From contig JAJFGZ010000076.1 in assembly GCA_021775855.1 (NCBI GenBank), positions 1 through 64,000 of the forward strand: a stretch of DNA of 64,000 nucleotides, read 5' to 3'. This document shows positions 6,466-10,741 of the stretch, piece after piece; position 1 is the stretch's first letter; every line of letters starts with the position of its first letter. The notes under the pieces were generated by a model, which was given only the letters and a program-made list of their open reading frames with translations, was not told where the DNA came from and did not search any database. Source of the stretch: Hyphomicrobiales bacterium. Its GTDB lineage: Bacteria > Pseudomonadota > Alphaproteobacteria > Rhizobiales > NORP267. The position numbers were made by a program, and so were the translations under genes.

Positions 6466-6642
6466 GCCAGGGCAGATTAACGCCAGCCGCCCCGTTACCA
6501 CAAGGAAAAAGCCAGTTTTTGCGGGGCCGCATACATAAAAATCATTATCAATTCCGCGTTATCATCCCCAGCCCCGGCATTGTTATTGGGGTGCATGCGG
6601 ATTAGGTTCCGGTTTCAAGAAAATTCTCAAAGGTTTCTCTGT

Positions 6643-7650
6643 ATGGATCGTCTGACAAACGAGCAGATTTTAGCGTTTCCTGCACTCGACGAACAGAAGT
6701 TCTGCGATCCCGTCACGACCCTGACCGGGGAACAGCGGGCCGAAATTGCGCTGAGTAAACTGGAAACGCTCTGGTTCAATACCGGGACGCTGTGCAATAT
6801 CACCTGCATTAATTGTTACATCGGATCGAGCCCTACCAATGACGCGCTGAGCTATATCAGCGCGGCAGAAGTCGGCGTATATCTGGACGAAATTGCCAGT
6901 CTTGATTTAGGCACCCGGGAAATCGGATTCACCGGTGGCGAACCGTTTATGAACCCGGACATGATCGAAATGGCGCGCGATGCACTCACGCGCGGCTTCG
7001 ATGTCCTGATCCTGACTAACGCCATGCAACCCATGCAGCGCAAGTCGATCAACTCTAAACTAATGGAACTAAAAGATGAATTCGGTGCGCGGCTGACTTT
7101 GCGCATCAGCCTGGACCATCACGGACAGGCCTTCCACGAAATCGAGCGCGGCGCGGATACCTGGGACATTGCCCTCAAGGGGATCGACTGGCTATCGGAA
7201 CACGGTTTCAACATCGCAGTTGCCGGCAGGACCTGTTGGGGCGAACTGGAGGCGGCGGCGCGCGACGGGTACCGGAAATTGTTCCGCGACCGCGGCTACG
7301 CCATCGACGCTGACGACACGTCATCGCTGGTCCTGTTTCCAGAAATGGATACCCGGCTCGATGTTGCTGAAATCACCACCAGCTGCTGGTCGATCCTTGA
7401 CGTGGATCCCGCCGGCATCATGTGCGCCACCAGCCGGATGATTGTTAAACGGCGGGGCGACGACACGCCGGGCGTCTTGCCCTGCACGGTACTGCCGTTC
7501 GACGGCGATTTCCATATGGGGTCGACGCTCGCCGAATCGCTGTGTGCCGATGGAAGCAATTTCAACAATGGCGCAGTGCGGCTCAACCACCCCCATTGCG
7601 CGCGCTTCTGCGTGCTCGGCGGCGGCTCGTGCTCGAAAACGTCTGAGTAG
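6643..7650 (+). CDS. Radical SAM superfamily enzyme
   Basis: About 335 residues from the preferred ATG at 6643 (MDRLTNEQ); the tracked start at 6580 is a TTG further upstream. The radical-SAM [4Fe-4S] motif is CNITCINC at the head of the barrel, with the GGEPF SAM-binding motif in 'GFTGGEPFMNPD'. The C-terminus is cysteine-rich (CWSI, MCATS, LPCTV, HCARFCVLGGGSC), as in SPASM/Twitch-like proteins that bind an auxiliary cluster. The substrate is unknown: there is no small peptide gene beside it and no recognised cofactor pathway. It is flanked by the tRNA-Gly and by dcd on the other strand. Confidence 0.9.
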   Translation: MDRLTNEQILAFPALDEQKFCDPVTTLTGEQRAEIALSKLETLWFNTGTLCNITCINCYIGSSPTNDALSYISAAEVGVYLDEIASLDLGTREIGFTGGEPFMNPDMIEMARDALTRGFDVLILTNAMQPMQRKSINSKLMELKDEFGARLTLRISLDHHGQAFHEIERGADTWDIALKGIDWLSEHGFNIAVAGRTCWGELEAAARDGYRKLFRDRGYAIDADDTSSLVLFPEMDTRLDVAEITTSCWSILDVDPAGIMCATSRMIVKRRGDDTPGVLPCTVLPFDGDFHMGSTLAESLCADGSNFNNGAVRLNHPHCARFCVLGGGSCSKTSE

Positions 7651-7785: not shown

Positions 7786-8919
7786 TCAACGGAAATGCTT
7801 CGAGAGTTTGAGGCCCTGTTTCTGATAGTTCGACCCGATATCCGTGCCGTATAGCTGATCTGGTCGCCCGGTCAGCGGTTCATAGACCAGCCGGCCAATA
7901 ATCTGACCGTGTTCGAGGATGAACGGCACTTCGTGAGACCGGACTTCAAGGACCGCGCGGCTGCCCTTCCCGCCCGCAGCCGAATGGCCGAAGCCGGGGT
8001 CAAAAAAGCCTGCATAATGTACCCTGAATTCCCCGACCAGTGGATTGTAGGGGATCATTTCAGCGGCGAATTCAGGCGGAACATGGACGGCTTCGCGCGA
8101 CGCCAGAATGTAGAATTGGTCCGGGTCGAGAATAAGCCCGGTATCCCGCTGGAGATAAATCGGCTCCCAATAATCCCGCACCTCGCAAGCGCCCGGCAAG
8201 TCTATATCGACCAGAGCAGTGTGCCGCTTGGCGCGGTATCCTATTAAACCATCGGCGTCCATATCCCCTTTGAGATCGACGCTGAGCGCCAGTCCGCCAT
8301 CGATATTTGGATTGCCGCCAGTCACAAGTTCATGGGTATCGTGGATAGCCTGGAGATCGGCGTCACTGCATTTCGCATCGCCCCGGCGGAACCGGATCTG
8401 GCTCAGGCGGCTTCCTTCGCGTACCAGGATCGGGAACGTTCTCGGGCTGACTTCCAGGAAGAGTTGGCCGGAATATCCCGCGATGATCAGATCAAACTCC
8501 TGACAATTGTCCGAGATAACACGCGTAAAAATATCCAGCCGGCCGGTTGAACTTTTCGGGTTGGCGGCGGCGGCGATATCATGCGGTAGATCGAGAGCCT
8601 CCAGAAGCGGGACAATATAGACGCACCCCGTCTCCAGAACCGCGCCATCGCTCAGATCGATCTCGTGCAACGATAATTGTGCGAGTTTCTCCATTACGGT
8701 TTCGCCCGAACCGGGCAGAAAACTTGCGCGGACCCGGTAGGCTCTGGGACCCAACCGGACATCCAGACTTGCCGGCTGGACCTGGCCCGCGAGCAATGGC
8801 CGGGCGGGGGCAATGGCGCCAGCGGCGATCAGGTCTTTTATCTCCCCGAAGGGCAAAATACCCTGACGCTGGGATTCAGAATCGCTCACCATTTGCCGCA
8901 TTACCCTTTCCATAGTCAT
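7786..8919 (-). CDS. dcd: 2'-deoxycytidine 5'-triphosphate deaminase (long, duplicated dUTPase-fold form)
   Basis: Converts dCTP to dUTP for thymidylate synthesis. At 377 residues it is about twice the length of the E. coli enzyme, matching the alphaproteobacterial form with two dUTPase-like folds in tandem: 'QPASLDVRLGPRAYRVR' near 47-63 and a second set with 'GYRAKRHTALVDIDLPGA' and 'FFDPGFGHSAAGGKGSRAVLEVR' near 320-340. The 'NPKSSTGRLDIFTRVI' box is the conserved phosphate-binding strand. Several in-frame ATGs (8919, 8913, 8901, 8892) crowd the 5' end and no ribosome site clearly decides between them. Transcribed divergently from metZ. Confidence 0.92.
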   Translation of the reverse strand: MTMERVMRQMVSDSESQRQGILPFGEIKDLIAAGAIAPARPLLAGQVQPASLDVRLGPRAYRVRASFLPGSGETVMEKLAQLSLHEIDLSDGAVLETGCVYIVPLLEALDLPHDIAAAANPKSSTGRLDIFTRVISDNCQEFDLIIAGYSGQLFLEVSPRTFPILVREGSRLSQIRFRRGDAKCSDADLQAIHDTHELVTGGNPNIDGGLALSVDLKGDMDADGLIGYRAKRHTALVDIDLPGACEVRDYWEPIYLQRDTGLILDPDQFYILASREAVHVPPEFAAEMIPYNPLVGEFRVHYAGFFDPGFGHSAAGGKGSRAVLEVRSHEVPFILEHGQIIGRLVYEPLTGRPDQLYGTDIGSNYQKQGLKLSKHFR

Positions 8920-8938: not shown

Positions 8939-8967
8939 TTGACGCCAAGGGGCTGCTGGGGTAAATC
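8939..8967 (+). promoter_or_regulatory. Predicted promoter of the metZ leader
   Basis: TTGACG (8939-8944) and TAAATC (8962-8967) are separated by exactly 17 bases. Transcription would begin near 8974, a few bases before the SAM-II aptamer, which supports the assignment. Confidence 0.6.
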
Positions 8968-8975
8968 CTCAGATA

Positions 8976-9039
8976 CGAAGTGGTGATTTGGAGCCGGCCG
9001 GCTTGCAGCCACTTAAAATAAATTGCTAAAAGGCCGGGG
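8976..9039 (+). ncRNA. SAM-II riboswitch aptamer upstream of metZ
   Basis: It follows the SAM-II (metA motif) pattern. P1 is AAGTGG (8978-8983) with CCACTT (9009-9014); the conserved TGATTTG strand follows P1, then CTTGCAGCCAC and the TTGCTAAAAGG segment. The pseudoknot pairs loop CCGGCC (8994-8999) with GGCCGG (9032-9037). The family binds S-adenosylmethionine and lowers expression of methionine synthesis genes in alphaproteobacteria; metZ is a typical target. Confidence 0.9.
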
Positions 9040-9048
9040 TGGACAAAA

Positions 9049-9085
9049 CCCGGTCTGGCACACGAGCCGCGCCGGGAATTTTTTT
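9049..9085 (+). terminator. Intrinsic terminator in the metZ leader (riboswitch expression platform)
   Basis: The stem is CCCGGTCTGGC with GCCGCGCCGGG (9049-9059 with 9066-9076, one C-C mismatch and two G-T wobbles) around loop ACACGA, followed by AA and seven Ts (9079-9085). The 5' arm CCCGG can instead pair with CCGGG at 9034-9038, part of the pseudoknot strand, which would form an antiterminator when SAM is absent. Confidence 0.75.
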
Positions 9086-9105
9086 GTCTACCAGGGACGA
9101 TTGTT

Positions 9106-10314
9106 ATGCCAACAGAATCCTTCCATGCCCCGCAGCCGGATTATCGCAGCGGGCTCGAGACCGACCTGATCCATGCCGGCACGATGCGCAGCCAACATGG
9201 CGAAACCTCGGAAGGTCTTTACCTTACCTCCGGCTATATTTACGAGACCGCCGAACAAGCTGAAGCCCGGTTTAAGGGCGAGCAGAGTGGCTTTATCTAC
9301 AGCAGATTCGCCAACCCCACGGTCGCCATGTTCGAAGCCCGCATGTGCGCCCTTGAAGGCGCTGAGATGGCCCGCGCCACCGCGAGCGGGATGGCCGCTG
9401 TTACCTCGACCATGCTGTGCCAGTTGAGTGCCGGGGATCACGTGGTGGCCGCAAAGGCCCTGTTCGGGTCGTGCCGCTACGTGATCGAAGATCTGTTGCC
9501 GCGCTTCGGCATCGCGATGACCCTCGTGGACGGCACCGATTTGGACCAGTGGGCGGCGGCTATGCGCCCCAATACCAAGGTGCTGTTTCTGGAATCCCCC
9601 ACCAACCCGACGCTCGACGTGATCGATATCGCCGGTGTTGCAAAAATCGCGACCAGCGGCGGCGCCCGGTTGGTGGTCGACAATGTTTTCGCGACCCCTA
9701 TGCACCAGCGCCCGCTCGCGCTCGGCGCCCATATCGTTGTGTATTCCGCGACAAAGCATATCGACGGTCAGGGCCGGTGCCTCGGCGGCGTGGTGCTTGG
9801 TAGCGAGGAATTTATTATGGGCAGCCTCCATAATTTCCTGCGCCAGACCGGGCCAAGCATCAGCCCGTTCAATGCCTGGGTCATGCTAAAAGGATTGGAG
9901 ACTTTGGCGCTGCGGGTCGCCCGCCATGTGGAATCCGCCGGCATATTGGCCAGCTATTTGTACAATCTTGAAGGCATCGAGCGTGTGCTGTATCCGGGCC
10001 ACGCGTCTCACCCCCAACACAATCTTGCCATGAGCCAGATGGGGTCCGGCGGGCCCATGGTGGCGTTCGAGGTGAAGGGCGGGAAAGCCGGCGCATTCAA
10101 ATTTGCGAACGCACTCGGCACCATCCAGATCTCTAATAATCTCGGTGACGCCAAGAGCCTGATCACCCATCCTGCCACCACAACCCACCAACGGTTGTCG
10201 GAAGACGCGCGGGCCGAGCTTGGAATAACTGACGGTTTGCTACGGCTTTCCGTGGGGCTGGAAGAAGTTGGCGATCTGGTCCGTGATATTGACGCCGGGC
10301 TTGCCGCGATTTAA
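9106..10314 (+). CDS. metZ: O-succinylhomoserine sulfhydrylase
   Basis: PLP enzyme of the Cys/Met metabolism family that makes homocysteine from O-succinylhomoserine and sulfide, allowing direct sulfhydrylation in methionine synthesis. 402 residues; the cofactor lysine lies in SATKHIDGQGRCLGG and the conserved 'FLESPTNPTLDVIDI' and 'VVDNVFATP' segments are present. The MetZ identity is supported by family likeness and by the SAM-II riboswitch and leader terminator immediately upstream. ATG start at 9106. apaG begins 34 bases downstream and may be co-transcribed. An O-acetylhomoserine sulfhydrylase or cystathionine synthase role is less likely. Confidence 0.9.
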   Translation: MPTESFHAPQPDYRSGLETDLIHAGTMRSQHGETSEGLYLTSGYIYETAEQAEARFKGEQSGFIYSRFANPTVAMFEARMCALEGAEMARATASGMAAVTSTMLCQLSAGDHVVAAKALFGSCRYVIEDLLPRFGIAMTLVDGTDLDQWAAAMRPNTKVLFLESPTNPTLDVIDIAGVAKIATSGGARLVVDNVFATPMHQRPLALGAHIVVYSATKHIDGQGRCLGGVVLGSEEFIMGSLHNFLRQTGPSISPFNAWVMLKGLETLALRVARHVESAGILASYLYNLEGIERVLYPGHASHPQHNLAMSQMGSGGPMVAFEVKGGKAGAFKFANALGTIQISNNLGDAKSLITHPATTTHQRLSEDARAELGITDGLLRLSVGLEEVGDLVRDIDAGLAAI

Positions 10315-10348: not shown

Positions 10349-10741
10349 ATGTACCGCGCCACGACTCGTTCGATCCAAGTCACGGTCGAGCCGCATTTCA
10401 TGCCGGAGCGTTCTTCGGAAGACCAACCCGTCTTTTTCTGGGCCTACCGGATAAAGATCGACAACAAAGGCGACGAGCCGGTCCAGCTTGTCTCGCGGCG
10501 ATGGGTGATTGTCGACGCGGTTGGCCGGGAAGAAATCGTCGAGGGCCTCGGTGTGGTGGGCGAACAACCGCTGCTCGGGCCCGGCGAAAGTTTTGAATAT
10601 TCAAGCGGGGTCCCGCTGACGACCCCTACCGGGATCATGTCGGGAACGTACCAGATGGCCGGGCGTGACGGACACGAATTTGATATCGAAATCCCCGCCT
10701 TTTCGCTCGATTGCCCACACCTCAAATCAACCATCAATTAG
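10349..10741 (+). CDS. apaG: ApaG protein
   Basis: A 130-residue single-domain protein with the immunoglobulin/fibronectin-like ApaG fold: 'VTVEPHFMPERSS', 'FFWAYRIKIDNKG', 'LVSRRWVIVDAVGR' and 'GPGESFEYSSGVPL'. Enteric apaG mutants have altered Co2+/Mg2+ sensitivity; the biochemical role is not settled. The tracked ORF begins 27 codons earlier inside the metZ tail; the ATG at 10349 is preferred because MYRATTRS is the family N-terminus and AAGGA lies just upstream. It lies directly behind metZ. Confidence 0.93.
   Translation: MYRATTRSIQVTVEPHFMPERSSEDQPVFFWAYRIKIDNKGDEPVQLVSRRWVIVDAVGREEIVEGLGVVGEQPLLGPGESFEYSSGVPLTTPTGIMSGTYQMAGRDGHEFDIEIPAFSLDCPHLKSTIN

Follow-up and report, generated by a model that had tools for sequence, protein, structure and literature searches.

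A SAM-II riboswitch with a mutually exclusive terminator and antiterminator ahead of metZ in a Hyphomicrobiales bacterium, and the spread of this arrangement in its class

The leader of metZ in this Hyphomicrobiales bacterium contains a SAM-II riboswitch that very probably switches the gene off by transcription attenuation, and this mechanism is well supported by the arrangement and conservation of the elements described below. The leader is a well-formed but ordinary switch: the same arrangement ahead of metZ is found throughout the bacterial group and is already known from the literature. The analysed stretch of DNA, referred to as the window, covers 64,000 nucleotides, and all features are on its forward strand unless stated otherwise.

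The Rfam covariance model RF00521 (SAM_alpha, i.e. SAM-II) matches positions 8970-9049 over its entire length (model positions 1-79 of 79) with 66.9 bits and an E-value of 7.4e-13, where the gathering score is 36. A search of the whole genome with RF00521 gives this copy as the single SAM-II match. The P1 stem, AAGTGG/CCACTT, has six base pairs (8978-8983 with 9009-9014) in the Rfam alignment and by script. The 5' strand of the P2 pseudoknot, CCGGCC, lies inside the P1 loop at 8994-8999, and its 3' strand, GGCCGG, at 9032-9037, directly preceded by the conserved GCTAAA (GCUAAA in the RNA). The sequence features that define the family, a P1 stem, a P2 pseudoknot of the H-type and a methionine-synthesis gene downstream, are thus all present. 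A sequence-only reading had proposed the SAM-II core, and the covariance match confirms it; the coordinates proposed for aptamer, pseudoknot, terminator and T run also agree with the sequence when checked by script. The P2 5' strand is contained in a self-complementary stretch, AGCCGGCCGGCT (8992-9003), which forms a hairpin within the P1 loop when prefixes of the leader are folded ligand-free. In this folding model, the hairpin could slow the formation of the pseudoknot or allow dimers.

The gene that follows is metZ, encoding O-succinylhomoserine sulfhydrylase (9106-10314, ATG at 9106; TIGR01325, 538 bits, cut-off 510), with a likely Shine-Dalgarno sequence AGGG at 9093-9096, judged from the sequence. 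It is closely followed on the same strand by apaG (10349-10741; NF003967, above cut-off), which may share the riboswitch control. Upstream and divergent, on the reverse strand, a profile match identifies a dCTP deaminase gene (7786-8919), and beyond it, on the forward strand, a radical SAM protein is encoded at 6580-7650 (Pfam Radical_SAM, 56.7 bits). The latter is assigned to no specific family, as its best NCBIfam matches are far under the cut-offs.

Between the aptamer and the metZ start codon lies an intrinsic terminator (9049-9085), which consists of a stem at 9049-9076 (-18.2 kcal/mol, with one mismatch), AA at 9077-9078 and the seven Ts that had been recognised earlier, at 9079-9085. 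The antiterminator (9031-9056) is formed by AGGCCGGG at 9031-9038 and CCCGGTCT at 9049-9056. The alternative pairing had been proposed as CCGGG with CCCGG; the pairing itself holds, but it is eight base pairs long, not five, and with one G-U pair it reaches -13.9 kcal/mol compared with -9.4 kcal/mol for the 5-bp version. It has 9032-9037 in common with P2 and 9049-9056 in common with the terminator, and therefore excludes both. This agrees with the proposed logic of an OFF-switch, in which the aptamer loop and the terminator 5' arm are alternative partners of the P2 3' strand. Promoter, aptamer, antiterminator, terminator and T run are all kept in two congeneric genomes (L023 and L025), while the loops have diverged.

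We suggest the following mechanism. Transcription would start near 8974, about 7 nt past the -10 box. When SAM is scarce, the free P2 3' strand would pair over eight base pairs with the nascent 5' arm of the terminator, and this antiterminator would let the polymerase continue into metZ. Plentiful SAM would instead be bound by the aptamer and lock P2, so that the terminator can form between its now available 5' arm and its 3' arm. A leader RNA of about 110 nt would then be released in the cell, as transcription ends within the T run, at around 9080-9086. The decision would presumably be taken during transcription.

Folding of successive prefixes of the leader is consistent with these two states. 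In ligand-free folding the 8-bp antiterminator is dominant from about 9054 to 9072. For the prefixes ending at 9074-9088, over which the T run is being made, the minimum-energy fold contains a 7-bp antiterminator and lacks the terminator, whose 3' arm is paired with the aptamer loop. Blocking the P2 strands, which mimics the SAM-bound state, gives the complete terminator. The two-state folding suggested earlier is thus reproduced, although all these energies are computed without pseudoknot, ligand or polymerase speed and should be seen as support, not as proof.

The pairing between pseudoknot strand and terminator arm can also be followed through evolution. In a swap test on 223 non-identical leaders, each P2 3' strand was paired with the terminator 5' arm of its own locus or with the arms of other loci. 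The mean pairing is -11.15 kcal/mol within the own locus and -9.86 kcal/mol for swapped arms (z -8.8, 0 of 5000 permutations), where z overstates the independence of the leaders as their relatedness is left in. Shuffled arms give -7.56 kcal/mol and pairing with the terminator 3' arm gives -7.73 kcal/mol. The class sample alone retains the signal (z -4.7, 0 of 5000 permutations). Restricted to the order, the test gives no significant difference (z -1.1), because the P2 and arm strands are nearly identical there, and we excluded this result from the evidence.

The compensating variants are a stronger point than the z-score in favour of selection on the antiterminator. P2 strands with GACCG are accompanied by an arm with CGGTC in 16 of 19 scored cases and with CGGCC in the other 3, while GGCCG is found together with CGGCC (30) or CGGTC (17). 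GGTCG is accompanied by CGACC (in 11 leaders, of which three have another variant as well) or by CGGCC, and the arm CGACC is never seen with GGCCG or GACCG. Across the class, pseudoknot strand and terminator arm show covariation.

How general is this arrangement? Among the genomes analysed, 46 of 61 in the order and 144 of 289 in the class contain SAM-II. The 302 aptamers that we gathered comprise 51 of the order, 132 of the class sample and 119 of named genomes (pattern scan), where the class set is a biased sample that comprises the better-scoring part of the matches listed. A leader was scored as having a terminator-like hairpin if a hairpin at or below -8.3 kcal/mol, with a T run after it, lay within 200 nt, and dinucleotide shuffles of the same DNA, with the T content kept, served as control. 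Such a hairpin is found in 257 of the 302 leaders, i.e. 85% compared with 30% of the shuffles. By set, the counts are 44/51 in the order, 107/132 in the class sample and 106/119 in the named genomes, against 31%, 22% and 38% in the respective shuffled controls. The hairpin lies no more than 45 nt from P2 in 39 order, 98 class and 104 named leaders, and metZ is the next gene at 44 of the 51 loci from the order and at 95 of the 132 from the class. The metZ leader had been called an unusually tidy transcriptional version of the switch. That it is an easily readable example is true; that the arrangement is uncommon is not supported by the survey, and terminators of this kind were already reported by Corbino 2005 (PMC1273637).

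The 45 leaders that lack a terminator-like hairpin are in line with another view, namely that SAM-II acts chiefly on translation, with P2 covering the site of ribosome binding in the manner of metX and S. meliloti metA, and that the hairpin is incidental. SAM-II/metX is indeed the textbook riboswitch of direct occlusion (review PMC10907184), and its aptamer fold is like the one described here. In metX the ribosome-binding site is hidden by P2; in the metZ leader it does not lie within the P2 3' strand, which is about 70 nt upstream of the ATG. The likely Shine-Dalgarno sequence falls outside both aptamer and terminator, and a strong, conserved hairpin with its seven Ts intervenes between P2 and the start. 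We therefore regard mainly translational control as highly improbable for metZ.

A different question is whether the terminator responds to SAM at all. If it were constitutive, with termination hardly dependent on SAM, the locus would mainly produce a leader sRNA and keep basal metZ expression low. There is a precedent in S. meliloti metA, where a terminator below SAM-II is not predicted to be under SAM control and limits expression in both media (PMC9373788). Ligand-free folding also favours the terminator in many leaders: the antiterminator appears in the minimum-energy fold of only 22% of the order, 8% of the class and 32% of the named loci. That most related leaders prefer the terminator counts against the attenuation model, which would then need a kinetic decision, and it points to a decision during transcription in the majority. 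However, the metZ leader studied here and its congener L023 both show the antiterminator in the minimum-energy fold, and the ligand-free fold of our copy excludes the terminator. Furthermore, a constitutive terminator would need no locus-specific, covarying antiterminator pairing. A constitutive terminator is accordingly very unlikely here, and SAM-dependent attenuation is preferred.

The promoter (8939-8967) consists of a -35 box TTGACG at 8939-8944, a spacer of 17 nt and a -10-like TAAATC at 8962-8967. It had been read in the same way before, and it is conserved in relatives: TTGAC is present at the matching place in 45 of 51 leaders of the order, and the TA of the -10 box is kept at about 75%. 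The -10 box is weak. A scan with E. coli-based consensus patterns reported neither promoter nor terminator at the metZ leader, owing to a mismatch in the terminator stem and a -10 box with little resemblance to that of E. coli. The empty scan is thus no evidence against either element, and conservation in relatives supports both.

A motif search of the order revealed that the -35 box is part of a longer motif, TTGACGCCAAG (8939-8949), a possible operator. Followed by 12 nt and TA (TTGACGCCAAG-N12-TA), it occurs 17 times in the 61 order genomes, and 14 of these occurrences are followed within a few bases by a SAM-II aptamer. These 14 sites span ten families, and their 12-nt spacers are fully diverged. 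Judging the genes by eye, two of the remaining three are apparently in coding sequence and one is in an open frame just upstream of a thioredoxin-like start. The four other copies of TTGACGCCAAG in the genome are inside open frames or lack a clear promoter context, so a genome-wide TTGACGCCAAG regulon was rejected. An excess of CTTGACGCCAAG in the order is probably due to codon usage (Leu-Asp-Ala-Lys), since the link to SAM-II is limited to the form with TA at promoter spacing. The named set, which is mostly rhizobial, contains variants such as TTGACGCAAGC and TTGACGGAAAG.

The motif could be an operator, an element of promoter strength, or the result of slow divergence of an inherited promoter, and its link to SAM-II promoters may be a new observation. 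It can be speculated, though we consider it rather unlikely, that the SAM-II promoters of the order carry a dedicated TTGACGCCAAG element, through which a regulator or a special promoter property adds control of initiation on top of the riboswitch. If true, this would explain the riboswitch-independent SAM response of the S. meliloti metA and metZ promoters. A further step would be that control is mostly exerted at the promoter, by a hypothetical regulator that binds TTGACGCCAAG, and that the riboswitch comes second. The near confinement of TTGACGCCAAG with promoter spacing to SAM-II promoters within the order fits this, as does the lower activity of the S. meliloti metA and metZ promoters at high SAM, for which the consulted part of the paper names no regulator (PMC9373788). 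However, TTGACGCCAAG could also be a promoter-strength element, and the class sample has no conservation past the -35 box (none of the 108 leaders in which a -35 box was called). The aptamer and the terminator are also conserved in their own right. Control mostly at the promoter is thus very unlikely, and attenuation by the riboswitch is still the preferred explanation.

The metZ leader is entirely inside the known range of its family. In 2007 a terminator was reportedly called the usual SAM-II arrangement in alpha- and beta-Proteobacteria. Corbino 2005 (PMC1273637) described many SAM-II leaders in which a putative terminator separates P2 from the gene, as well as promoters close to the consensus that precede P1 by a few nucleotides, and our leader shares with this family (metA motif, RF00521) the consensus aptamer with P1 and P2, the methionine gene, the promoter before P1 and the terminator past P2. 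Regulons were described by Leyn 2014 (PMC4239095). The closest parallel is the S. meliloti metZ leader (sRNA RZ) of Scheuer 2022 (PMC9373788), which has the same gene, the same aptamer class, a predicted SAM-induced terminator and a similar length of about 100-110 nt. According to that paper, the metZ leader sRNA of about 100 nt goes up and metZ mRNA goes down under high SAM or in rich medium, and the metA and metZ promoters themselves respond to the SAM supply. Our leader differs in having its own terminator sequence and in being the only SAM-II copy, while S. meliloti carries another one before metA. The logic is also that of the SAM-I (S-box) attenuators of Firmicutes, where SAM leads to the terminator and its absence to the antiterminator, but the aptamer is unrelated; an Rfam search of the 64-kb window gave no SAM-I.

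Some SAM-II matches in the class have other neighbours. In two class genomes, paired matches are located about 700 nt apart on one strand, at 287-363 and 999-1076 in L297 and at 1702-1778 and 989-1066 in L298. The genes downstream include an OsmC-like protein and NMT1-type ABC substrate-binding proteins, and this group represents SAM-II outside methionine biosynthesis. Lower-scoring matches (L299, L300 and L285) are found before a gene that by eye resembles SAM synthetase (metK), a PAPS-reductase-domain gene and a methyltransferase.

By itself the metZ leader is of small importance: it adds to the examples of a known switch, although it can be read unusually well. The survey provides a sequence-based measure of how general the terminators are (257 of 302 leaders), together with the class-wide covariation of the antiterminator. 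The attenuation mechanism was proposed in 2005-2007 and has since been tested only indirectly in the literature consulted; with these data it becomes easy to test in a leader such as that of metZ. Separately, the TTGACGCCAAG motif offers a lead that could account for SAM control at the level of the promoter.
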